A stretch of 64,000 nt of DNA. It comes from Cloacibacillus evryensis DSM 19522 (GTDB lineage: Bacteria > Synergistota > Synergistia > Synergistales > Synergistaceae). This document shows positions 15,726-26,705 of this stretch, piece by piece. The translations under genes and the position numbers were made by a program. How positions within the stretch are numbered: the stretch's first letter is position 1; every line of letters starts with the position of its first letter. The stretch lies in the NCBI RefSeq assembly GCF_000585335.1, contig NZ_KK073872.1, forward strand, positions 1,789,283 through 1,853,282. The letters are read 5' to 3'. The notes beneath the pieces were generated by a model that ran no database searches, was not told the origin of the DNA, and worked only from the letters and a program-made list of their open reading frames with translations.

Positions 15726-16835
15726 ATGCCGACAATCTTTACAAAGGATACGCTGCGCGCCAGCGTGGAGGCCGCAACCGGCGGCCACGTAACCGTACTC
15801 TACGACGATAAAGGGTATCCGAGCTACATGTACAAAATACCCAAATTCACCATCGGATTCGCGTTCAAGTCCTTACTCGGGGACAGCTGGGCAAACTCGG
15901 CGCTCGCTTCGCGCGAGAACGAGACTTTTCCTGCGTTTGTAAAAAATGGCGTAGAGAAGAGCGAGCTATACATCGGCTGCTACAAAGGCAAGTTGTACGA
16001 TGGCCGTCTCTGTTCGGTCCCCGGCGTAGATCCCACAACATACATCAATTTCGACGCCGCTTCAAAATCCGCTACCGACAAGGGTGAAGGGTGGCACATT
16101 ATGTCCATCTGGGAACGCGCCGCCCTGATACACTGGTGCGCAAACAATAAAAAGATCCCGCGCGGCAACACATACTACGGACGACACCATAGCGCGACCT
16201 ACGAGTTTGGCGCGAGACAAGACGGCGGCAAACCTGGCGACACCACCGGAGACCCTGCGGCGCGCACGCTCACTGGCTCCGGCCCCGCCTCATGGAGACA
16301 CAACGCGGAGCAGTTCGGGATAGATGATCTCTGCGGCAACATCTACGAATGGCTTGTAGGCTTCAAGCTCGTGGACGGCGTGATCAAGATGATCTCCGAC
16401 AACTACTTCGACCAGGCGGAAACATCGTGGCCTGGCAGCCTCGGAGCTCTCGATTCCACGGGTGGCACAACAGACGGCACCGGAGTAACGGACGCGGGCG
16501 CGCCAGTGTTCGCCTCCGCTGTGACGAAAAAGACAGGGGAGGAAAAATATGCCGTTCAGCCGACATACTCATCCCGCGCGGCGGCAACAGGATACACCGT
16601 GCCGATCGGCCTGATCCTCGCTGGCATCGCCCCTGCAACCCGCATCTCCGGCACCTACGATACGGATGGCGCGCCCAACGGCGCACTCTACATGCGCAAC
16701 GTCGGGGAGCGCTTGCCGCTCGCTGGTGGCAGCTGGAGCAACACGTCCGACGCCGGGGTCGCCTGCCTGGACCTCGATAATCTGCGCTCGACCTCGGGCA
16801 GCAGTGTCGGCGCGCGTCCCTGCTTTGTCGCGTAG
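15726..16835 (+). CDS. DGR target: variable receptor-binding protein, C-type lectin/FGE-like fold
   Basis: 369 residues. The C-terminal two thirds carry the formylglycine-generating-enzyme-like lectin pattern (WERAALIHWCAN; FGIDDLCGNIYEWLVGF; SRAAATGYTVPIG; LPLAGGSW...GARPC), the fold used by most DGR variable proteins. The last ~42 codons are the variable repeat. Ten codons that are Asn in the template correspond to residues 336, 338, 339, 342, 349, 351, 352, 356, 358 and 360; here they read S, S, N, D, D, D, N, T, G and S. Invariant Trp, Gly, Cys and Arg residues between them keep the fold. The gene is last in the tail/fibre series, so it is probably the host-recognition tip. Confidence 0.9.
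   Translation: MPTIFTKDTLRASVEAATGGHVTVLYDDKGYPSYMYKIPKFTIGFAFKSLLGDSWANSALASRENETFPAFVKNGVEKSELYIGCYKGKLYDGRLCSVPGVDPTTYINFDAASKSATDKGEGWHIMSIWERAALIHWCANNKKIPRGNTYYGRHHSATYEFGARQDGGKPGDTTGDPAARTLTGSGPASWRHNAEQFGIDDLCGNIYEWLVGFKLVDGVIKMISDNYFDQAETSWPGSLGALDSTGGTTDGTGVTDAGAPVFASAVTKKTGEEKYAVQPTYSSRAAATGYTVPIGLILAGIAPATRISGTYDTDGAPNGALYMRNVGERLPLAGGSWSNTSDAGVACLDLDNLRSTSGSSVGARPCFVA
16705..16824 (+). repeat. DGR variable repeat (VR)
   Basis: About 120 bp at the 3' end of the target gene, aligned without gaps to the template repeat 575 bp downstream. In 16706-16824 there are ten differences, and all ten fall at adenines of the template: nine A to G and one A to C (16792). C, G and T positions are identical throughout. 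One further A to G at 16705 extends the pattern. The final 18 bp (16806-16823) contain no adenine in the template and are identical, which is the expected GC-rich end of the initiation-of-mutagenic-homing site. Confidence 0.95.
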
Positions 16836-16840
16836 CGACA
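16826..16840 (+). other. Hairpin just downstream of VR (homing-associated)
   Basis: Perfect 6-bp stem TGTCGC/GCGACA with a 3-base loop GTA, starting one base after the end of VR similarity and covering the stop codon of the target gene. In the Bordetella phage BPP-1 DGR a short hairpin/cruciform a few bases after VR stimulates target recognition; this one has the same place. Confidence 0.7.
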
Positions 16841-16846
16841 CTCGAG

Positions 16847-16901
16847 AATCCGAAAATCCGGCCAATCCGTAATCCGGTTTTTGGTTTTAGGTTTTAATCC
16901 G
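16847..16901 (+). repeat. AATCCG repeats between VR and avd
   Basis: Five copies of AATCCG at 16847, 16855, 16864, 16871 and 16896 lie in the 83-bp gap between the target stop and avd. Part of the segment (about 16855-16881) could fold as an imperfect stem with CCGG/CCGG paired and A/T runs outside, giving a weak terminator-like structure. Function unknown; it lies next to the homing hairpin. Confidence 0.5.
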
Positions 16902-16918
16902 AAAAAGGGGGTTTGTCT

Positions 16919-17275
16919 TTGGCAGTTGAAGAACTTAGGATATTGGCAACGGCAGAGCGCATGGAAACATGGCTACATAGAACATTGGAAAAAATTCCAA
17001 AGTATGCAAGGTTTCCGGTATACGCGCAGATGAAGGGTACTATGCGTATTTTGCGCAGACTAATACTCGAATGCAATCAGGCCAGGGATAAAACCTCTTA
17101 TTTCACCAAGATAGATCTGGAGCTTTTGCTGCTCCGATCTGACGTGCGCGTTATGCTCGAATCGCGTCTCATCACACCGGGGGAATTTAAAGTTTGGGGC
17201 GAGGAGATCGATAAGATTGGCAGACAATTAGGCGCATGGGGTAAAGCCTGCCATATATATACGGCAAAGGGGTAA
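16919..17275 (+). CDS. avd: DGR accessory variability determinant (Avd)
   Basis: 118 residues from TTG at 16919, seven bases after GGGGG; a TTG at 16913 is too close to that site. The protein is all helical, basic, and matches the Avd four-helix-bundle family (LATAERMETWLHRTLEKIPKYARF, FTKIDLELLLLRSDVRVML, KVWGEEIDKIGRQLGAW). Avd forms a pentamer that binds the DGR reverse transcriptase and template RNA and is required for mutagenic homing. Its position between VR and TR is the standard order. Confidence 0.9.
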   Translation: MAVEELRILATAERMETWLHRTLEKIPKYARFPVYAQMKGTMRILRRLILECNQARDKTSYFTKIDLELLLLRSDVRVMLESRLITPGEFKVWGEEIDKIGRQLGAWGKACHIYTAKG

Positions 17276-17279
17276 AGCT

Positions 17280-17399
17280 AGAAGCGCTTGCCGCTCGCTG
17301 GTGGCAACTGGAACAACACGTCCAACGCCGGGGTCGCCTGCCTGAACCTCAATAATCTGCGCTCGAACTCGAACAGCAATGTCGGCGCGCGTCCCTGCT
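17280..17399 (+). repeat. DGR template repeat (TR)
   Basis: Non-coding copy of the 3' end of the target gene, 5 bp after avd. Read in the target frame it would encode ten Asn codons (AAC/AAT at 17306, 17312, 17315, 17324, 17345, 17351, 17354, 17366, 17372, 17378), a bias typical of DGR templates because AAY codons can change to many residues but never to a stop. About 24 adenines are available to mutagenesis. The stretch 17381-17398 has no adenine (IMH* side). Confidence 0.95.
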
Positions 17400-17562
17400 C
17401 TCGCCCGGAAAGACAGATGCCGCACGGCTACGGCTATGCGGCCAGTGCACGGGCAAAAGGAGCGTTACCCCTTCCTCGCAGCAAACGGGGAAAAGATTAA
17501 CTGGGTCCGGCCTCAAGTAGCGAATGCGAAAGCGGTCGGACTTTTTATGAGGTGAAGATAAA
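17400..17562 (+). ncRNA. TR-RT spacer, likely part of the DGR template RNA
   Basis: 163 bp without a convincing gene. In BPP-1 a spacer of similar length between TR and the reverse transcriptase is needed as part of the template RNA for cDNA priming. An ORF reading through TR and this segment (17288-17500) has no ribosome site and is not counted as a gene. A GAGGTGAAG site for the reverse transcriptase lies at its end (17549-17557). Confidence 0.45.
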
Positions 17563-20987: not shown

Positions 20988-21303
20988 GGCGTATGTCGTG
21001 CCGGTTGCCGACGGGCGTGACACGGTGGAGATGATAGAGTCTCAGGCGGCGGAGATTGGAGCCCTCAGGAAGCATGTGTCTGCGCAGGACAGGATCGTCG
21101 ATGCCATCAGCGCCGACATCGTAGCTCTGGAGGGCGCTGTCGCGCGGGAGCGGGCGGCTTGGCAAAAGAGCGCCGAGGAGCTCCAGCGGCAAAACGGAAG
21201 GCTGCGCTCTCCCTGGTCTGTTGGGGTGTTCGCCGGGTATGACGCAGTCCACCAAGAAGCGTGCGTTGGCGTTGGGCTGGTGTATTCGTTTTTGCGATTT
21301 TGA
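20866..21303 (+). CDS. Outer-membrane spanin candidate (Rz1-like, long) overlapping Rz
   Basis: 146 residues from ATG 20866, in the +1 frame within the Rz-like gene. The N-terminus is a signal sequence (WLALITTALLAAGTAC, Cys 22) that could be a lipobox although residue -3 is Gly rather than Leu/Val. A coiled-coil middle (DTVEMIESQAAEIGALRKH...) follows, ending in beta-like VGVFAGYDA and VGVGLVYSF strands. This is longer than known Rz1 proteins, so it may be a variant o-spanin or an unrelated lipoprotein. A degraded copy of its 3' part lies downstream. Confidence 0.5.
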   Translation: MISGAMWLALITTALLAAGTACWGDTGKIELRPKGYSLSSEAYVVPVADGRDTVEMIESQAAEIGALRKHVSAQDRIVDAISADIVALEGAVARERAAWQKSAEELQRQNGRLRSPWSVGVFAGYDAVHQEACVGVGLVYSFLRF

Positions 21304-21321
21304 TAAAGTTTTATTTTGTGC

Positions 21322-21352
21322 GGGCGGGGCTTAGGCTCCGCCCAATTTTTTT
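21322..21352 (+). terminator. Terminator of the phage late operon
   Basis: 9-bp stem GGGCGGGGC/GCTCCGCCC (one G-T pair), loop TTAG, then AATTTTTTT. It is 19 bp after the last intact phage gene. Confidence 0.9.
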
Positions 21353-21372
21353 GTGCCTTAATTTATTCCATC

Positions 21373-21609
21373 GCAACCCTTAGGAGGCATGTATCTTCAC
21401 AGAACAGGATAGTTGATACCATCAGCGCCAACATTGTGGCTCTGGAGGGCGCTGTAGCGCTGGAACGGGCGGCTTGGAGGGAGCACGTCGAGCAGCTTCA
21501 GCGGACCAACAAAAGACTTAGCCCTTGTCCTTTGAGGTGTTCGCAGGGTATAGCGCAACGCACAGAGATGCGCGCATCGGCGTCGGGTATGTTTTTTGTT
21601 TGGTAGCCA
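21373..21609 (+). pseudogene. Frameshifted partial duplicate of the 3' end of the preceding gene
   Basis: The translated segment TLRRHVSSQNRIVDTISAN and ALEGAVALERAAW is clearly a copy of the coiled coil of the gene at 20866-21303. A 4-base loss near 21523 shifts the frame; in the other frame the ending VFAGYSATHRDARIGVGYVF matches VFAGYDAVHQEACVGVGLVY of the parent. No start codon or ribosome site is left. It marks the end of phage-like sequence. Confidence 0.8.
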
Positions 21610-21670: not shown

Positions 21671-21745
21671 TGGTGGGCGATATTGGGTTCGAACCAACGA
21701 CTTCCACCGTGTGAAGGTGACACTCTACCGCTGAGTTAATCGCCC
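21671..21745 (-). tRNA. tRNA-Val (anticodon CAC)
   Basis: Reverse complement folds as a full cloverleaf: acceptor GGGCGAT/ATCGCCC, anticodon loop TTCACAC, T loop TTCGAAC; CCA is encoded (21671-21673). Last gene of a five-tRNA operon and nearest to the prophage end. Confidence 0.9.
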
Positions 21746-21756
21746 GGATACTAAAA

Positions 21757-21832
21757 TGGTGGATCGTACAGGAATCGAACCTGTAACCCCCTGATTAAGA
21801 GTCAGGTGCTCTGCCAGTTGAGCTAACGATCC
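21757..21832 (-). tRNA. tRNA-Lys (anticodon CTT), copy 1
   Basis: Acceptor GGATCGT/ACGATCC, anticodon loop ACTCTTAAT, T loop TTCGATT, encoded CCA. Identical over its whole length to the next copy. Confidence 0.9.
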
Positions 21833-21857
21833 AAATGACTTGCTCGTGATATTAGAC

Positions 21858-21933
21858 TGGTGGATCGTACAGGAATCGAACCTGTAACCCCCTGATTAAG
21901 AGTCAGGTGCTCTGCCAGTTGAGCTAACGATCC
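21858..21933 (-). tRNA. tRNA-Lys (anticodon CTT), copy 2
   Basis: Same sequence as the copy at 21757-21832; only the spacers differ, so a recent tandem duplication or gene conversion is likely. Confidence 0.9.
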
Positions 21934-21957
21934 AAACATCTAAAACCTGTTATTTAG

Positions 21958-22035
21958 TGGGGTGAGTGACGGGAATTGAACCCGCAACCACCGGAACCAC
22001 AATCCGGTACTCTAACCAATTGAGCTACACTCACC
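21958..22035 (-). tRNA. tRNA-His (anticodon GTG)
   Basis: Acceptor GTGAGTG/CACTCAC with the extra 5' G (complement of C at 22035) opposite a C discriminator, as needed for HisRS; anticodon GTG; encoded CCA. Confidence 0.9.
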
Positions 22036-22072
22036 ATAAATAACGCTATTCCGTGCTTCGCACTTATTAAAG

Positions 22073-22149
22073 TGGCGCGCCTGAAGGGACTCGAACCCCC
22101 GGCCCACTGCTTAGAAGGCAGTTGCTCTATCCGACTGAGCTACAGGCGC
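22073..22149 (-). tRNA. tRNA-Arg (anticodon TCT)
   Basis: Acceptor GCGCCTG/CAGGCGC, anticodon loop CTTCTAA, T loop TTCGAGT, encoded CCA. First tRNA of the minus-strand array. Confidence 0.9.
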
Positions 22150-22184
22150 ACATCTCACACTGCCTCTGCCGAAGCACGCAGATA

Positions 22185-22212
22185 ATTATAATCAAAATAC
22201 AGTTTGTGTCAA
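22185..22212 (-). promoter_or_regulatory. Promoter of the tRNA operon
   Basis: On the minus strand TTGACA (22212-22207) and TATAAT (22190-22185) are both perfect and 16 bp apart, about 35 bp upstream of tRNA-Arg. Confidence 0.85.
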
Positions 22213-22295
22213 TACGAAAATCAAAAAAAGCGGCGATTTTTTTACCTTACGGCGACAAAGCTGCTTTTTTATAAAAAAATAGGCGATAATGCAAA

Positions 22296-22324
22296 TTGTG
22301 CAAAATACTTTTATGTGCTAAACT
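22296..22324 (+). promoter_or_regulatory. Putative promoter for the gene at 22379
   Basis: TTGTGC (22296-22301) and TAAACT (22319-22324) with a 17-bp spacer, about 55 bp upstream of the start codon; AAGGAGCGC is at 22365-22373. Confidence 0.5.
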
Positions 22325-22378
22325 GAAATCAATGAATTGTAAGATAAATATAAATAATACAAATAAGGAGCGCTTGAA

Positions 22379-22639
22379 ATGAATTGTTATCAGATCATGG
22401 CAATACGAATCTATGACCGAGACAAAAGTGCCGTTGAGGTACAGCGGGTGCTTACCGAGTACGGATGCTCGATTCTTACCAGACTTGGGCTCCACGATCA
22501 ATCCACCCCGGGGACATGTTCGCCGGCTGGTCTCCTCGTACTTCAGCTTTGCTGCTGCAACGAAACCTCAAAAGAGCTTGAAAGCAAGCTCAACGCGCTC
22601 AATGGTGTGAAAGTGCAGTTAGTGGACCTTTCGGATTAA
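22379..22639 (+). CDS. Small ACT-like regulator (TM1266-type)
   Basis: 86 residues, AAGGAGC before the ATG. The beta-alpha-beta pattern (MAIRIYDRDKSAVEVQRVL, ILTRLGLHD, LLVLQLCCCNETSKELESKL, VKVQLVDLSD) resembles the TM1266 family of small ferredoxin-fold proteins annotated as iron-only hydrogenase system regulators. No hydrogenase gene is nearby. A CCC Cys run in the third strand is unusual. It is a single gene with its own promoter and terminator. Confidence 0.5.
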   Translation: MNCYQIMAIRIYDRDKSAVEVQRVLTEYGCSILTRLGLHDQSTPGTCSPAGLLVLQLCCCNETSKELESKLNALNGVKVQLVDLSD

Positions 22640-22657
22640 CGGCCTTTACCGGCAAAT

Positions 22658-22705
22658 GGGCGGAAGAGCCGGAGCCTCTCCGGAGCTTCTGCCCGCTTTT
22701 ATTTT
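22658..22705 (+). terminator. Terminator after the ACT-like gene
   Basis: Long GC-rich hairpin (22658-22694: GGGCGGAAG...CTTCTGCCC outside, CCGGAG/CTCCGG inside) followed by CTTTTATTTT. Confidence 0.8.
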
Positions 22706-22719
22706 GAGGAGGTTTGAAA

Positions 22720-23238
22720 ATGTATCTGGGGGAAGCTGAGATCTTATGCAGGCTGTTGCTGGCGGCCCTCTTCGGCGCAGTTTTCGGGATAGAGCGCAAG
22801 CACAGAAATAAACCGATCGGCGCTCGTACACATATACTTATCTCTATTGCCGCCTGTACGGTTGCGATCATCTCATCATACGGCTTCACCGATCTGGCCT
22901 TTTCCTATCCTCATGACGTCAGTGTTAGGACGGACCCCGCACGCTTGATGGTAGGGATGCTTACCGGCATCGGTTTCATCGGCGCGGGAATAATATATAA
23001 AAGCCCCCACGGAGATATAAAGGGCATTACGACGGCGGCCGAAGTATACCTCATGGCCGTGCTTGGTATTGGTTCCGGGTTGGGGTTATACCTGCTTTCA
23101 ATATCGTCGGCCGTGTTGGCTTACATCACTTTGATATGCTCCGAGGATACGGTCACATGTCTTAGAGATAAATATTACGTTCCCCTTAAGCTTTGGCTTG
23201 AAAAACTTCTTCATCGCCGGCACTCCAGGGGGGAGTGA
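22720..23238 (+). CDS. MgtC/SapB-family membrane protein
   Basis: 172 residues from the ATG at 22720, 7 bp after GAGGAGG. It has the MgtC pattern: four to five hydrophobic helices with LLLAALFGAVFGIERKHR, GARTHILISIAACTV, and the conserved VGMLTGIGFIGAGII and GITTAAEVYLMAVLGIGSG segments. Family members occur in Mg stress and virulence but many are of unknown function. It lacks the C-terminal ACT domain. Its last 50 bp overlap the end of the convergent cupin gene. Confidence 0.85.
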   Translation: MYLGEAEILCRLLLAALFGAVFGIERKHRNKPIGARTHILISIAACTVAIISSYGFTDLAFSYPHDVSVRTDPARLMVGMLTGIGFIGAGIIYKSPHGDIKGITTAAEVYLMAVLGIGSGLGLYLLSISSAVLAYITLICSEDTVTCLRDKYYVPLKLWLEKLLHRRHSRGE

Positions 23239-23572
23239 CGATGCAGAGAAACTCCAGCCTCTTTTGACCGCGGTTGACGATGGACTGTTCCGCCCCCGGA
23301 GGCACGACGGCACAACTTCCCGCCTCAAGTGAGACGCTCTCTTCGTCGATATGGATCACCGCTTCGCCGGAGAGGATGACATATGTTTCGGATGCTTTGA
23401 TAAGCCGGTGGGGCAATGTACGCCCTCCTGCCTCGACATAAGCGTGGGAGAGCGAATAGCTGTCATACGGGAGCGCCGTGCGCATCGGATGCAGCACTTC
23501 CGCAAGTTCGCAACGGTCTCCAGCGGTGAAATGCTCTTCACGAAACATGTTCTTTATAATCGGCCTTCTCAT
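23186..23572 (-). CDS. Cupin-domain protein
   Basis: 128 residues from ATG 23572; a GTG at 23584 is also possible but too close to AAGGAG. A single-domain cupin with the two motifs: SYSLSHAYVEAGGRTLPHRL with SETYVILSGEAVIHI, then GSCAVVPPGAEQSIVNRG. The metal ligand pattern is partly visible (His, Glu), with ligands of motif 2 less clear. Substrate unknown. Convergent with the MgtC gene, sharing about 50 bp. Confidence 0.75.
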   Translation of the reverse strand: MRRPIIKNMFREEHFTAGDRCELAEVLHPMRTALPYDSYSLSHAYVEAGGRTLPHRLIKASETYVILSGEAVIHIDEESVSLEAGSCAVVPPGAEQSIVNRGQKRLEFLCIVTPPWSAGDEEVFQAKA

Positions 23573-23627
23573 ATCACTATGCACGCTCCTTTTTCCCTTG
23601 CCGCCGGTTGTTTTTACGGATGAAAAA

Positions 23628-23656
23628 AGGGTCCTCGGCTTCTCGCTGAGGACCCT
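23628..23656 (-). terminator. Terminator of tRNA-Val (GAC)
   Basis: 12-bp stem (23628-23639 with 23645-23656, one G-T pair) and 5-base loop; on the minus strand it is followed by a run of T (complement of A at 23623-23627). It lies 11 bp beyond the tRNA 3' end. Confidence 0.85.
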
Positions 23657-23666
23657 GAATTATCAA

Positions 23667-23741
23667 TGGTGGACAATAGAAGAATTGAACTTCTGACCTC
23701 TTCCGTGTCAAGGAAGCGTTCTACCTCTGAACTAATTGTCC
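23667..23741 (-). tRNA. tRNA-Val (anticodon GAC)
   Basis: Cloverleaf with acceptor GGACAAT/ATTGTCC, anticodon loop TTGACAC, T loop TTCAATT and encoded CCA. Confidence 0.9.
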
Positions 23742-24427: not shown

Positions 24428-25978
24428 ATGACCATGTACAGAGAGATACTTCGCCTTCACTTCGAAGGCGGGCTGAGCCAGCGGGATATTGCCGCCAGCT
24501 GCCGCTGCGCCCACAGCACTGTCAAGCGGATCCTTGCAAGAGCCGCAGAGCTGGAGCTGGATTTTAACAAGATCAAAGAGCTCTCGGACAATTCGCTTGC
24601 AAGGATGATCTATCCGCAGGCCATACTGCCGCGTATCCAGAAAGAACCGGATTACGCCTATATACATAAGGAGCTTGCCAGATCAGGCGTCACGCTTGCT
24701 CTGTTATGGAACGAGTATTGCGCGGCATGTCAGGAAAGCGGCGATATCCCGTATATGTATTCACAGTTCAGCAAGAATTATAAGGAATATGCGGCAGCGA
24801 ACAGCACGTCTATGCATATCGCCCATAAGCCTGCCGAGGTCATGGAGGTCGACTGGGCCGGCACAAAGATTCTGCTTCGAGATGCCGTTGCCGGGAAAGA
24901 AATAAAAGCGTCTCTCTTCACAGCCTGCCTGCCATTTTCAGGTTATTGCTATGCCGAGGCATTCGCGGACGAGAAGCTGGATTCATGGCTCACAGCGCAT
25001 ATCCATGCGTATGCTTTCTTCGGAGGAACGGCTAAGATTCTCAGGCCGGACAACTTAAAGACCGGGGTCGTCAGGTCAGATAAGTATGACCCTGAAATCA
25101 ACAGCGCTTACAGAGAACTCGCTGAGCACTACGGTGCTTTTGTCTCTCCCGCAAAAGTACGCAAACCAAAAGACAAGCCCACCGTCGAGGGAACGGTCGG
25201 AATGCTCACCACTCATATCATAGCCGCCGTCAGAAACGTTGACTATCATTCATTAAAAGAACTTAACAAGGACATCTGTCTCAGATTCAGACAATTCAAC
25301 GACAGGCCCTTTCAAAAGAAAGAGGGCTCACGCAGCCTCCTGTTCTCCGTTCAGGAGAGCCGGTATCTGAGTCCGCTGCCTGAATTCTGTTATCAGATAG
25401 CCCATTACAAGGATGCCGTCGTTCCGGCAAATTATCATATTCAGGCAGAGGGCGGGAAATACTACAGTGTGCCCTATGAGTGTATCAGAAGAAAAGTAAC
25501 GGTAAGGAGCACCTCTTCTATGATAGAGGTATTCTGCGACGGAGAGCGGGTCGCCTGTCATATACGCAATCGGGGAGCTGAACGGTATGTCACGGACAGT
25601 TCTCATATGCCTGAGGCGCATAGACAGCTCTACGCCTGGAACAACGACAAGTTTCTTGAATGGGGCGCGGAGATAGGCGGCGGCACTCTCTCCGTGATAC
25701 AGAAGATACTTACCAGGAACGGACATAGCCTGCCGGGCTACAAATTCTGTATGGGGCTGGTATCGCTGAGTAAAAATTATGCCGCGCAGGATATAGAGAA
25801 CGCCTGCAGGGCGCTTCTCGCCCTTTCTTCCGCCCCGAGCCTGAAATCTATGAAGCTCGCGCTCAGCGCTGTTACCGCGAAAAGAAACGCTGATGATGAT
25901 TCGACACAGAATGATGGGCCTTCCGTTACAGGTTTCAGACGCGGCGCAGGCTACTACGGAGGCAAGAGCGATGATTAG
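24428..25978 (+). CDS. istA: IS21-family transposase IstA
   Basis: 516 residues, AAGGGAGG before the ATG. N-terminal helix-turn-helix (EGGLSQRDIAASCRCAHSTVKRIL), then the DDE core with EVDWAG (Asp 1), LRPDNLKTGVV (Asp 2) and KDKPTVEG with the catalytic Glu. A C-terminal beta domain (GGKYYSVPYECIRRKVTVR) is as in other IstA proteins. Full length for the family. Confidence 0.95.
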   Translation: MTMYREILRLHFEGGLSQRDIAASCRCAHSTVKRILARAAELELDFNKIKELSDNSLARMIYPQAILPRIQKEPDYAYIHKELARSGVTLALLWNEYCAACQESGDIPYMYSQFSKNYKEYAAANSTSMHIAHKPAEVMEVDWAGTKILLRDAVAGKEIKASLFTACLPFSGYCYAEAFADEKLDSWLTAHIHAYAFFGGTAKILRPDNLKTGVVRSDKYDPEINSAYRELAEHYGAFVSPAKVRKPKDKPTVEGTVGMLTTHIIAAVRNVDYHSLKELNKDICLRFRQFNDRPFQKKEGSRSLLFSVQESRYLSPLPEFCYQIAHYKDAVVPANYHIQAEGGKYYSVPYECIRRKVTVRSTSSMIEVFCDGERVACHIRNRGAERYVTDSSHMPEAHRQLYAWNNDKFLEWGAEIGGGTLSVIQKILTRNGHSLPGYKFCMGLVSLSKNYAAQDIENACRALLALSSAPSLKSMKLALSAVTAKRNADDDSTQNDGPSVTGFRRGAGYYGGKSDD

Positions 25979-26705
25979 CCAGCAGACGATAAACCAGCTG
26001 CATGATATGCACCTCAGTTTCCTCGCCGGCGACATCAAGGAGCGACAGGCCGACGCTTCTTTCTGCGAACTCAGCTTCGACGAGCAGATAACCGTCATTG
26101 TGGACAGAGAGTGGCATAGGAGGCGCAGCAAGCGCATTACAGACCTTATAAGGGAGGGGCAGTTCTGCTACAACAGCGCTTCAGTGCTTGAGATAGACTA
26201 TGCACAGGAGCGCGGACTGGTAAAAAAGCAGATAAACGAACTTGCGGCCTGTTCTTATATTGAAAACGGACACAACATCATGATCATGGGAGCCACCGGA
26301 GTGGGAAAAAGTTATCTCGCATGCGCGCTGGGAACGGCGGCCTGCCGCAACCGCTATTCCTGCCGTTACACCCGAACGCCGGAACTGCTGGATCAGCTTG
26401 CGATGGCGAGGACCGATGGCTCTGTACGCCAAATTATACAGCAATACAGAAAACCCCGGCTCCTTATCCTGGACGAATGGCTTATAACCCGGATCAGCCA
26501 TGGAGGACTTGAAGACATCTTTGAAATAATGGAGTGCCGCAGCACAGAACAGCGCTCGACCATATTCTGCAGTCAGATAGAGACCTCGGAATGGCTGGCT
26601 GCGCTCGGCAATTCGTTGATGGCCGAAAGTTTAATGGACAGGATCATTCATTGTTCGTATAAAATCGTGCTTCACGGCGACTCAATGAGGAAGAAAAAGG
26701 ATTGA
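25971..26705 (+). CDS. istB: IS21-family helper ATPase IstB
   Basis: 244 residues from ATG 25971, which overlaps istA by 8 bp; the longer upstream frame is within istA. AAA+ ATPase with Walker A (GATGVGKSYLA, ~110-120) and Walker B (RLLILDEWLI). IstB oligomerises on DNA and directs IstA to target sites. Appears intact. Confidence 0.95.
   Translation: MISQQTINQLHDMHLSFLAGDIKERQADASFCELSFDEQITVIVDREWHRRRSKRITDLIREGQFCYNSASVLEIDYAQERGLVKKQINELAACSYIENGHNIMIMGATGVGKSYLACALGTAACRNRYSCRYTRTPELLDQLAMARTDGSVRQIIQQYRKPRLLILDEWLITRISHGGLEDIFEIMECRSTEQRSTIFCSQIETSEWLAALGNSLMAESLMDRIIHCSYKIVLHGDSMRKKKD

Follow-up and report, generated by a model that had tools for sequence, protein, structure and literature searches.

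Two nearly identical segments of 119 bp, a variable repeat (VR) and a template repeat (TR), lie close to each other in a 64,000-nucleotide stretch of the genome of Cloacibacillus evryensis DSM 19522 (hereafter the window), VR in a phage tail gene and TR upstream from a reverse transcriptase (RT) gene. This raises the question of whether VR has been rewritten from TR by mutagenic homing, as in the diversity-generating retroelements (DGRs), and of what would designate VR, and not TR, as the recipient. A sequence-only reading of the window had proposed recent homing, on the basis of a 119-base alignment within 16705-17399 (offset 575) that displayed nine A to G and one A to C differences for about 24 adenines and no difference at any C, G or T position.

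The exact ungapped alignment of VR 16706-16824 with TR 17281-17399 (119 bp, offset 575) places the repeats within one base of this proposal and yields the same counts. Indeed, A is replaced by G at TR positions 17282, 17307, 17313, 17324, 17345, 17351, 17372, 17373 and 17379, and by C only at 17367, and no substitution at a non-A template position was found inside the repeat (0/95 sites). The hypergeometric probability that all 10 differences fall on TR adenines is 1.8e-8; when the edge position 17282 is left out, all nine remaining differences are still on A (P = 1e-7). The ends of the repeat were set at 17281 and 17399 because the first non-A differences between VR and TR are encountered only beyond these positions, at 17279 and below and at 17400 and above. 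All 24 TR adenines occupy codon positions 1 and 2 of the frame of the variable protein (VP), and the 40 third codon positions are all identical between VR and TR, so that neutral drift has left no trace after the last transfer. With 95 non-A sites, including these 40, free of drift, the word 'recent' is a fair one. VR is the sole match of TR in the 3.49 Mb genome. Furthermore, the comparison with relatives carrying the same cassette, which had been suggested as a check, reveals different VRs whose changes are again located at A.

In principle, duplicated segments could also have come to differ through ordinary drift or gene conversion, without any retroelement homing, since tandem duplications do diverge. 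The probability of this explanation is negligible: the alignment refutes it, all 10 changes being at A and none at the 95 other sites (P about 2e-8), and genes encoding an RT and Avd adjoin TR.

The order of the features is VP-avd-TR-Sp RNA-RT, as in the DGR of the Bordetella phage BPP-1 (Table 1). The RT-14 RNA begins at the base that directly follows TR, with a score of 62.2 bits (gathering threshold 48.1), and the same RNA family is found at the equivalent place in three relatives (L014, L016 and L007). The RT displays the motifs YMDD and IGALTSQ (IGxxxSQ-type), and its profile matches reverse transcriptase structures, including 8UB7 (E 6.5e-48), which belongs to a structure group that we take to be BPP-1 bRT.

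Table 1. Position of VR, TR and associated features in the window
Feature	Position	Strand	Remarks
VP gene, 369 aa, TaqVP-type phage tail protein	15726..16835	+	VR encodes its C-terminus
VR	16706..16824	+	109/119 identical to TR; 10 differences, each at a TR adenine
Short inverted repeat TGTCGC-GTA-GCGACA	16826..16840	+	Directly behind VR, across the VP stop
AATCCG unit array	16847..16901	+	Units start at 16847, 16855, 16864, 16871 and 16896
avd, accessory variability determinant, 120 aa	16913..17275	+	Start position uncertain; bAvd PF22296 E 1e-13; PHROG 3206 Avd E 5e-19
TR	17281..17399	+	24 adenines; mostly AAC/AAT codons, in the VP frame
RT-14 structured RNA, spacer (Sp) RNA	17400..17544	+	Rfam RF02921; TR-RT interval
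DGR reverse transcriptase, 351 aa	17563..18618	+	RVT_1 E 1e-15; phrog_1423 E 2e-122

The locus thus harbours TR/VR near-repeats that differ at TR adenines (10/10), a VR at the 3' end of a gene whose product has a C-type-lectin-like scaffold (according to its match to 5VF4, see below), an RT adjoining TR, Avd and a structured spacer RNA 3' of TR. Directly observed here are this anatomy and the homologies, the restriction of the differences to adenines and the absence of drift. As the adenine-only differences are associated with AAY codons in TR, Avd, an RT of DGR type and a VP homologous to a known variable protein, mutagenic homing is the sole reasonable reading, and the cassette is almost certainly a complete and apparently working Avd-type DGR in a prophage tail-gene region, as judged from a single VR sequence.

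The BPP-1 prototype is the source for the chemistry, for the direction in which sequence is transferred and for a role in receptor binding. By analogy, TR would be transcribed jointly with the Sp (RT-14) RNA, and the RT-Avd complex would synthesize a cDNA of TR with misinsertions opposite template adenines. The misinserted base would mostly be C, leading to A>G changes in the sense strand, and the replacement of VR by this cDNA would alter the lectin-like binding surface at the C-terminus of the tail protein.

VP strongly matches phrog_2889 (E 7e-103) and, more weakly, other phage tail families; no Pfam family scores above its cut-off, and the match to FGE-sulfatase is weak (E 0.038). Over residues 4-361, its profile matches PDB 5VF4 (E 6e-95), the structure of TaqVP, a crystallised DGR variable protein with a C-type-lectin fold encoded by a Thermus aquaticus prophage (PMC6328139). 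VP is therefore predicted, from this homology, to adopt a C-type-lectin fold of the FGE subtype; its AlphaFold model, of poor quality (pLDDT 38.6), was left unused. Neighbouring genes code for a baseplate hub and baseplate J, a tail tape-measure-like protein and endolysins, which makes a tail or receptor-binding function probable for VP. Relatives of VP were sought in viral contigs and none was found, and exact-pattern scans of these contigs for phage copies with the same VR returned a single chance match. Directly past the phage genes, six tRNA genes (Val, Lys, Lys, His, Arg and Val) are clustered on the minus strand at 21671-23741, a possible prophage boundary. An imperfect direct repeat (156 bp at 77% and 66 bp at 74% identity, with a spacing of about 315) is found at 21055-21587, and an IS21-like istA/istB pair at 24428-26705.

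The T. aquaticus DGR resembles this one in that the VPs are homologous over their whole length, VR lies at the C-terminus of an FGE-type C-type-lectin fold and the setting is a prophage (PMC6328139); it differs in host and sequence. In BPP-1, the parts follow the same order (mtd-bbp7(avd)-TR-brt), the TR/VR changes extend as far as IMH and are confined to adenines, and the RT shares about 34% identity with the RT studied here. Unlike BPP-1, the present locus encodes a TaqVP-type VP, has no GRNA-loop hairpin that could be found and carries a longer, CCG-based array behind VR. Another relative, L014/L024, is found in a genome of the same family, with an RT and a VP 65% and 79% identical to those described here, an RT-14 RNA and an AATCCG array behind VR. 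Its VR is independent, with 12 changes, all at A, four of them to T. With the present locus, a clean DGR whose variable protein is of a structurally known type joins a kind of element that was already known. A second DGR of the genus, L018 (G001:C1:3139744-3143736), was identified in another genome, with an RT only 32% identical. Its VR (701-817) carries TGA in the VP reading frame where its TR (2739-2855) carries TAA, and its target protein therefore looks truncated.

The predominance of A>G changes had been tentatively attributed to a misincorporation bias of this RT or to selection. It was compared with 287 distinct TR/VR pairs from related DGRs, comprising 3,849 substitutions at adenines; since pairs were accepted with no more than three non-A mismatches, the search itself limits the pooled non-A rate. 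In this set, adenines are replaced by G in 51.5% of the cases, by T in 28.4% and by C in 19.9%, and C is the base most frequently misinserted opposite A (59.3%) by BPP-1 bRT in E. coli (PMC12875486). As both show the same preference, the excess of G is ordinary in kind. Its extent, nine out of 10, is a mild outlier of weak significance (P about 0.01-0.02): P is 0.009 when the pooled rate is applied and 0.016 when the rates are context-specific, and the share of G reaches at least 0.9 in only three of the 276 other loci with at least eight changes. Selection on the protein, for example for keeping Asp, Ser or Gly, could explain the excess instead of RT bias. The residues produced by the VR changes (D, D, D, S, S, S, G, T and E) and the P value of about 0.01-0.016 relative to the pooled rate are in line with it, but G is the commonest change in pairs from diverse hosts, C is the commonest misinsertion in BPP-1 cDNA and three other loci are equally extreme, which would make this VR a tail case; selection is thus rather unlikely. 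Of the proposed explanation, RT bias stands as a general trend, and the additional skew may also reflect selection or chance. An effect of the host genus (nine out of 10 here and seven out of eight in L018, Fisher P 0.0007) was set aside, being a post hoc comparison of two loci. In the 287 pairs, single adenines that precede G differ from those in other contexts (59.6% changed to G, 0% to C and 1.7% to T), an almost exclusive change to G that may stem from a bias of the RT or from an edge effect where the repeat ends.

The second question is how a DGR discriminates VR from TR. In BPP-1, the target requires IMH and a GRNA-loop hairpin (Guo et al. 2011, PMC3240598), although residual activity is kept without the hairpin (PMC12875486). 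The direction of transfer is set by 21 bp of IMH that display five mismatches to TR (PMC3240598). Behind the VR studied here, no GRNA-loop hairpin was found; the inverted repeat at 16826-16840 is a possible counterpart of the known target hairpin, though without the GRNA tetraloop, and no such repeat occurs at the matching site behind TR. The absence of a GRNA hairpin is not taken to exclude this locus from the DGRs, because such a hairpin, common in phage DGR targets but not a strict requirement, is not universal in the relatives and BPP-1 retains some activity without it.

Between this inverted repeat and avd lies an array of AATCCG units, with spacings of 8, 9 and 7 nt, then 25 nt across a T-rich gap. 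Three AATCCG units in a row are found nowhere else in the 3.49 Mb genome, and relatives carry AATCTG units at the equivalent place. As a general criterion for such arrays, at least three CTG/CCG/NTG units spaced by 7-8 nt within 60 nt of VR on the sense strand are proposed, a strict rule from which the spacing of 9 departs; the local array, although imperfect, is of this kind. The local array was noticed after looking, and the statistics given below come from other loci.

Spaced units, mostly CTG (CCG at this locus), are found directly behind many VRs at intervals of 7 or 8 nt. In 49 non-redundant flanks (redundancy being judged by shared 7-mers, without a tree), about 96 intervals separate successive CTGs, of which 43 are 7 nt and 35 are 8 nt, against about 1.5 each expected from shuffled sequences. 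The usual chains of spacings are 7-8-8, 8-7-7-8 or 7-7-8. The period also emerges from a motif-free base autocorrelation of 144 non-redundant VR flanks of Avd-type DGRs (z 18.3 at lag 7 and 9.6 at lag 8), with echoes at lags 14-15 and 22-23, whereas the TR flanks display no such peak. At least three CTGs at 7/8 spacing occur behind 57 of these 144 VRs, versus 0/1,253 other stop codons of the same loci and 48/62,993 other 60-mers, and the signal is restricted to the sense strand. With a broad definition of units, an array is present behind 25/32 VRs located far from avd and TR, many of these 32 being closely related. Among a small set of plasmid DGRs outside the discovery collections, all four near relatives carry CTG/TTG units (3, 2, 3 and 5), four cyanobacterial loci (L365, L366, L368 and L369) carry CCCTTTA/CCCTTTT (CCCTTTW-type) repeats with a period of 7-8 nt behind their VRs, and four others (L367, L370, L371 and L372) have no array units. 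The GRNA-loop hairpin, when present, often begins 2-3 nt past the last unit; for 62 of 93 arrays, a search over 60 nt returned none. The open-access papers that were searched do not describe the array, which may be new.

Given its position, its recurrence and its absence behind TRs, we consider it rather likely that the CCG/CTG array located 3' of VR contributes to the target site by which VR, rather than TR, is recognized as the recipient. Like the hairpin and IMH described by Guo et al., which mark the target, it lies directly 3' of VR; unlike that hairpin, it sits between VR and the hairpin and also occurs where none was found within 60 nt. BPP-1 itself carries CTG-7-TTG in VR, ahead of its hairpin. 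Its directional 21-bp stretch reads ACCACCTGATTCTTG in VR and CCCATCACCTTCTTG in TR: three of the five differences turn CTGA (VR) into CACC (TR), and only VR has a CTG seven bases before TTG. The array may thus be, by analogy, a general form of the BPP-1 directional element. The 4 bp that separate BPP-1 VR from the hairpin, whose alteration has no effect (Guo et al. 2011, PMC3240598), are not array units. As the array recurs behind VRs, is absent behind TRs and matches three of the five BPP-1 bases, the question of discrimination is open to a simple mutational test. The array could also serve as a signature in searches for remote DGR targets and guide the design of DGR-based protein diversification.

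Two other functions of the array can be considered. The array could be a start track for the host primase, seeding RNA primers that extend into VR: E. coli DnaG prefers CTG as its template triplet, and in the orientation favourable to homing the sense strand is the template of the lagging strand. The restriction of the CTG array to the sense strand and the preference of DGR editing in E. coli for targets co-directional with the replication fork (PMC12875486) agree with such a role. It is nevertheless improbable: the sharp 7/8 spacing is unexpected for primer sites, other clades have TTG, CCG or CCCTTT as units, and altering the level or recruitment of DnaG had no effect on editing, a result that its authors call inconclusive (PMC12875486). 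Alternatively, the array could pair with the Sp RNA next to TR and guide the RNP to VR, as a GCCAGA/CAGAAG motif, complementary to TCTGGC, is frequent directly after TR. This pairing is very improbable and was rejected, since the Sp RNA of a locus pairs with its array with no better energy than those of other loci (own versus swapped, permutation P = 0.15).

If the array is a recognition element, it may be read by a protein. Avd, which is a pentamer, or the RT-Avd-RNA complex could bind along such a track. More generally, the chances are evenly balanced that the array between VR and the known hairpin is a general element of target recognition and directionality. Its triplet would then differ between lineages, with CTG in most Avd-type DGRs, CCG in this one and a CCCTTT-like sequence in cyanobacteria, and its reader would perhaps be pentameric Avd or the RT-Avd complex. 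CTG arrays were detected in 94/149 loci with Avd versus 0/6 without, and 64 further Avd-less loci display no clear CTG array. A weaker CG array of the same period is nevertheless found in a subset of Avd-less loci, with chains of at least three in 13/44 (about 1.7 expected). A strict dependence of the array on Avd is undercut by this CG array and confounded by descent; as the Avd-less RTs form one clade, some members of which carry the CG array, Avd stays a candidate reader. The loci L279-L358, found on viral contigs, belong to a DGR clade without an Avd match in which VR often ends in a GGAGCC-like sequence; in a subset of them, CG dinucleotides follow VR at 7/8 spacing.
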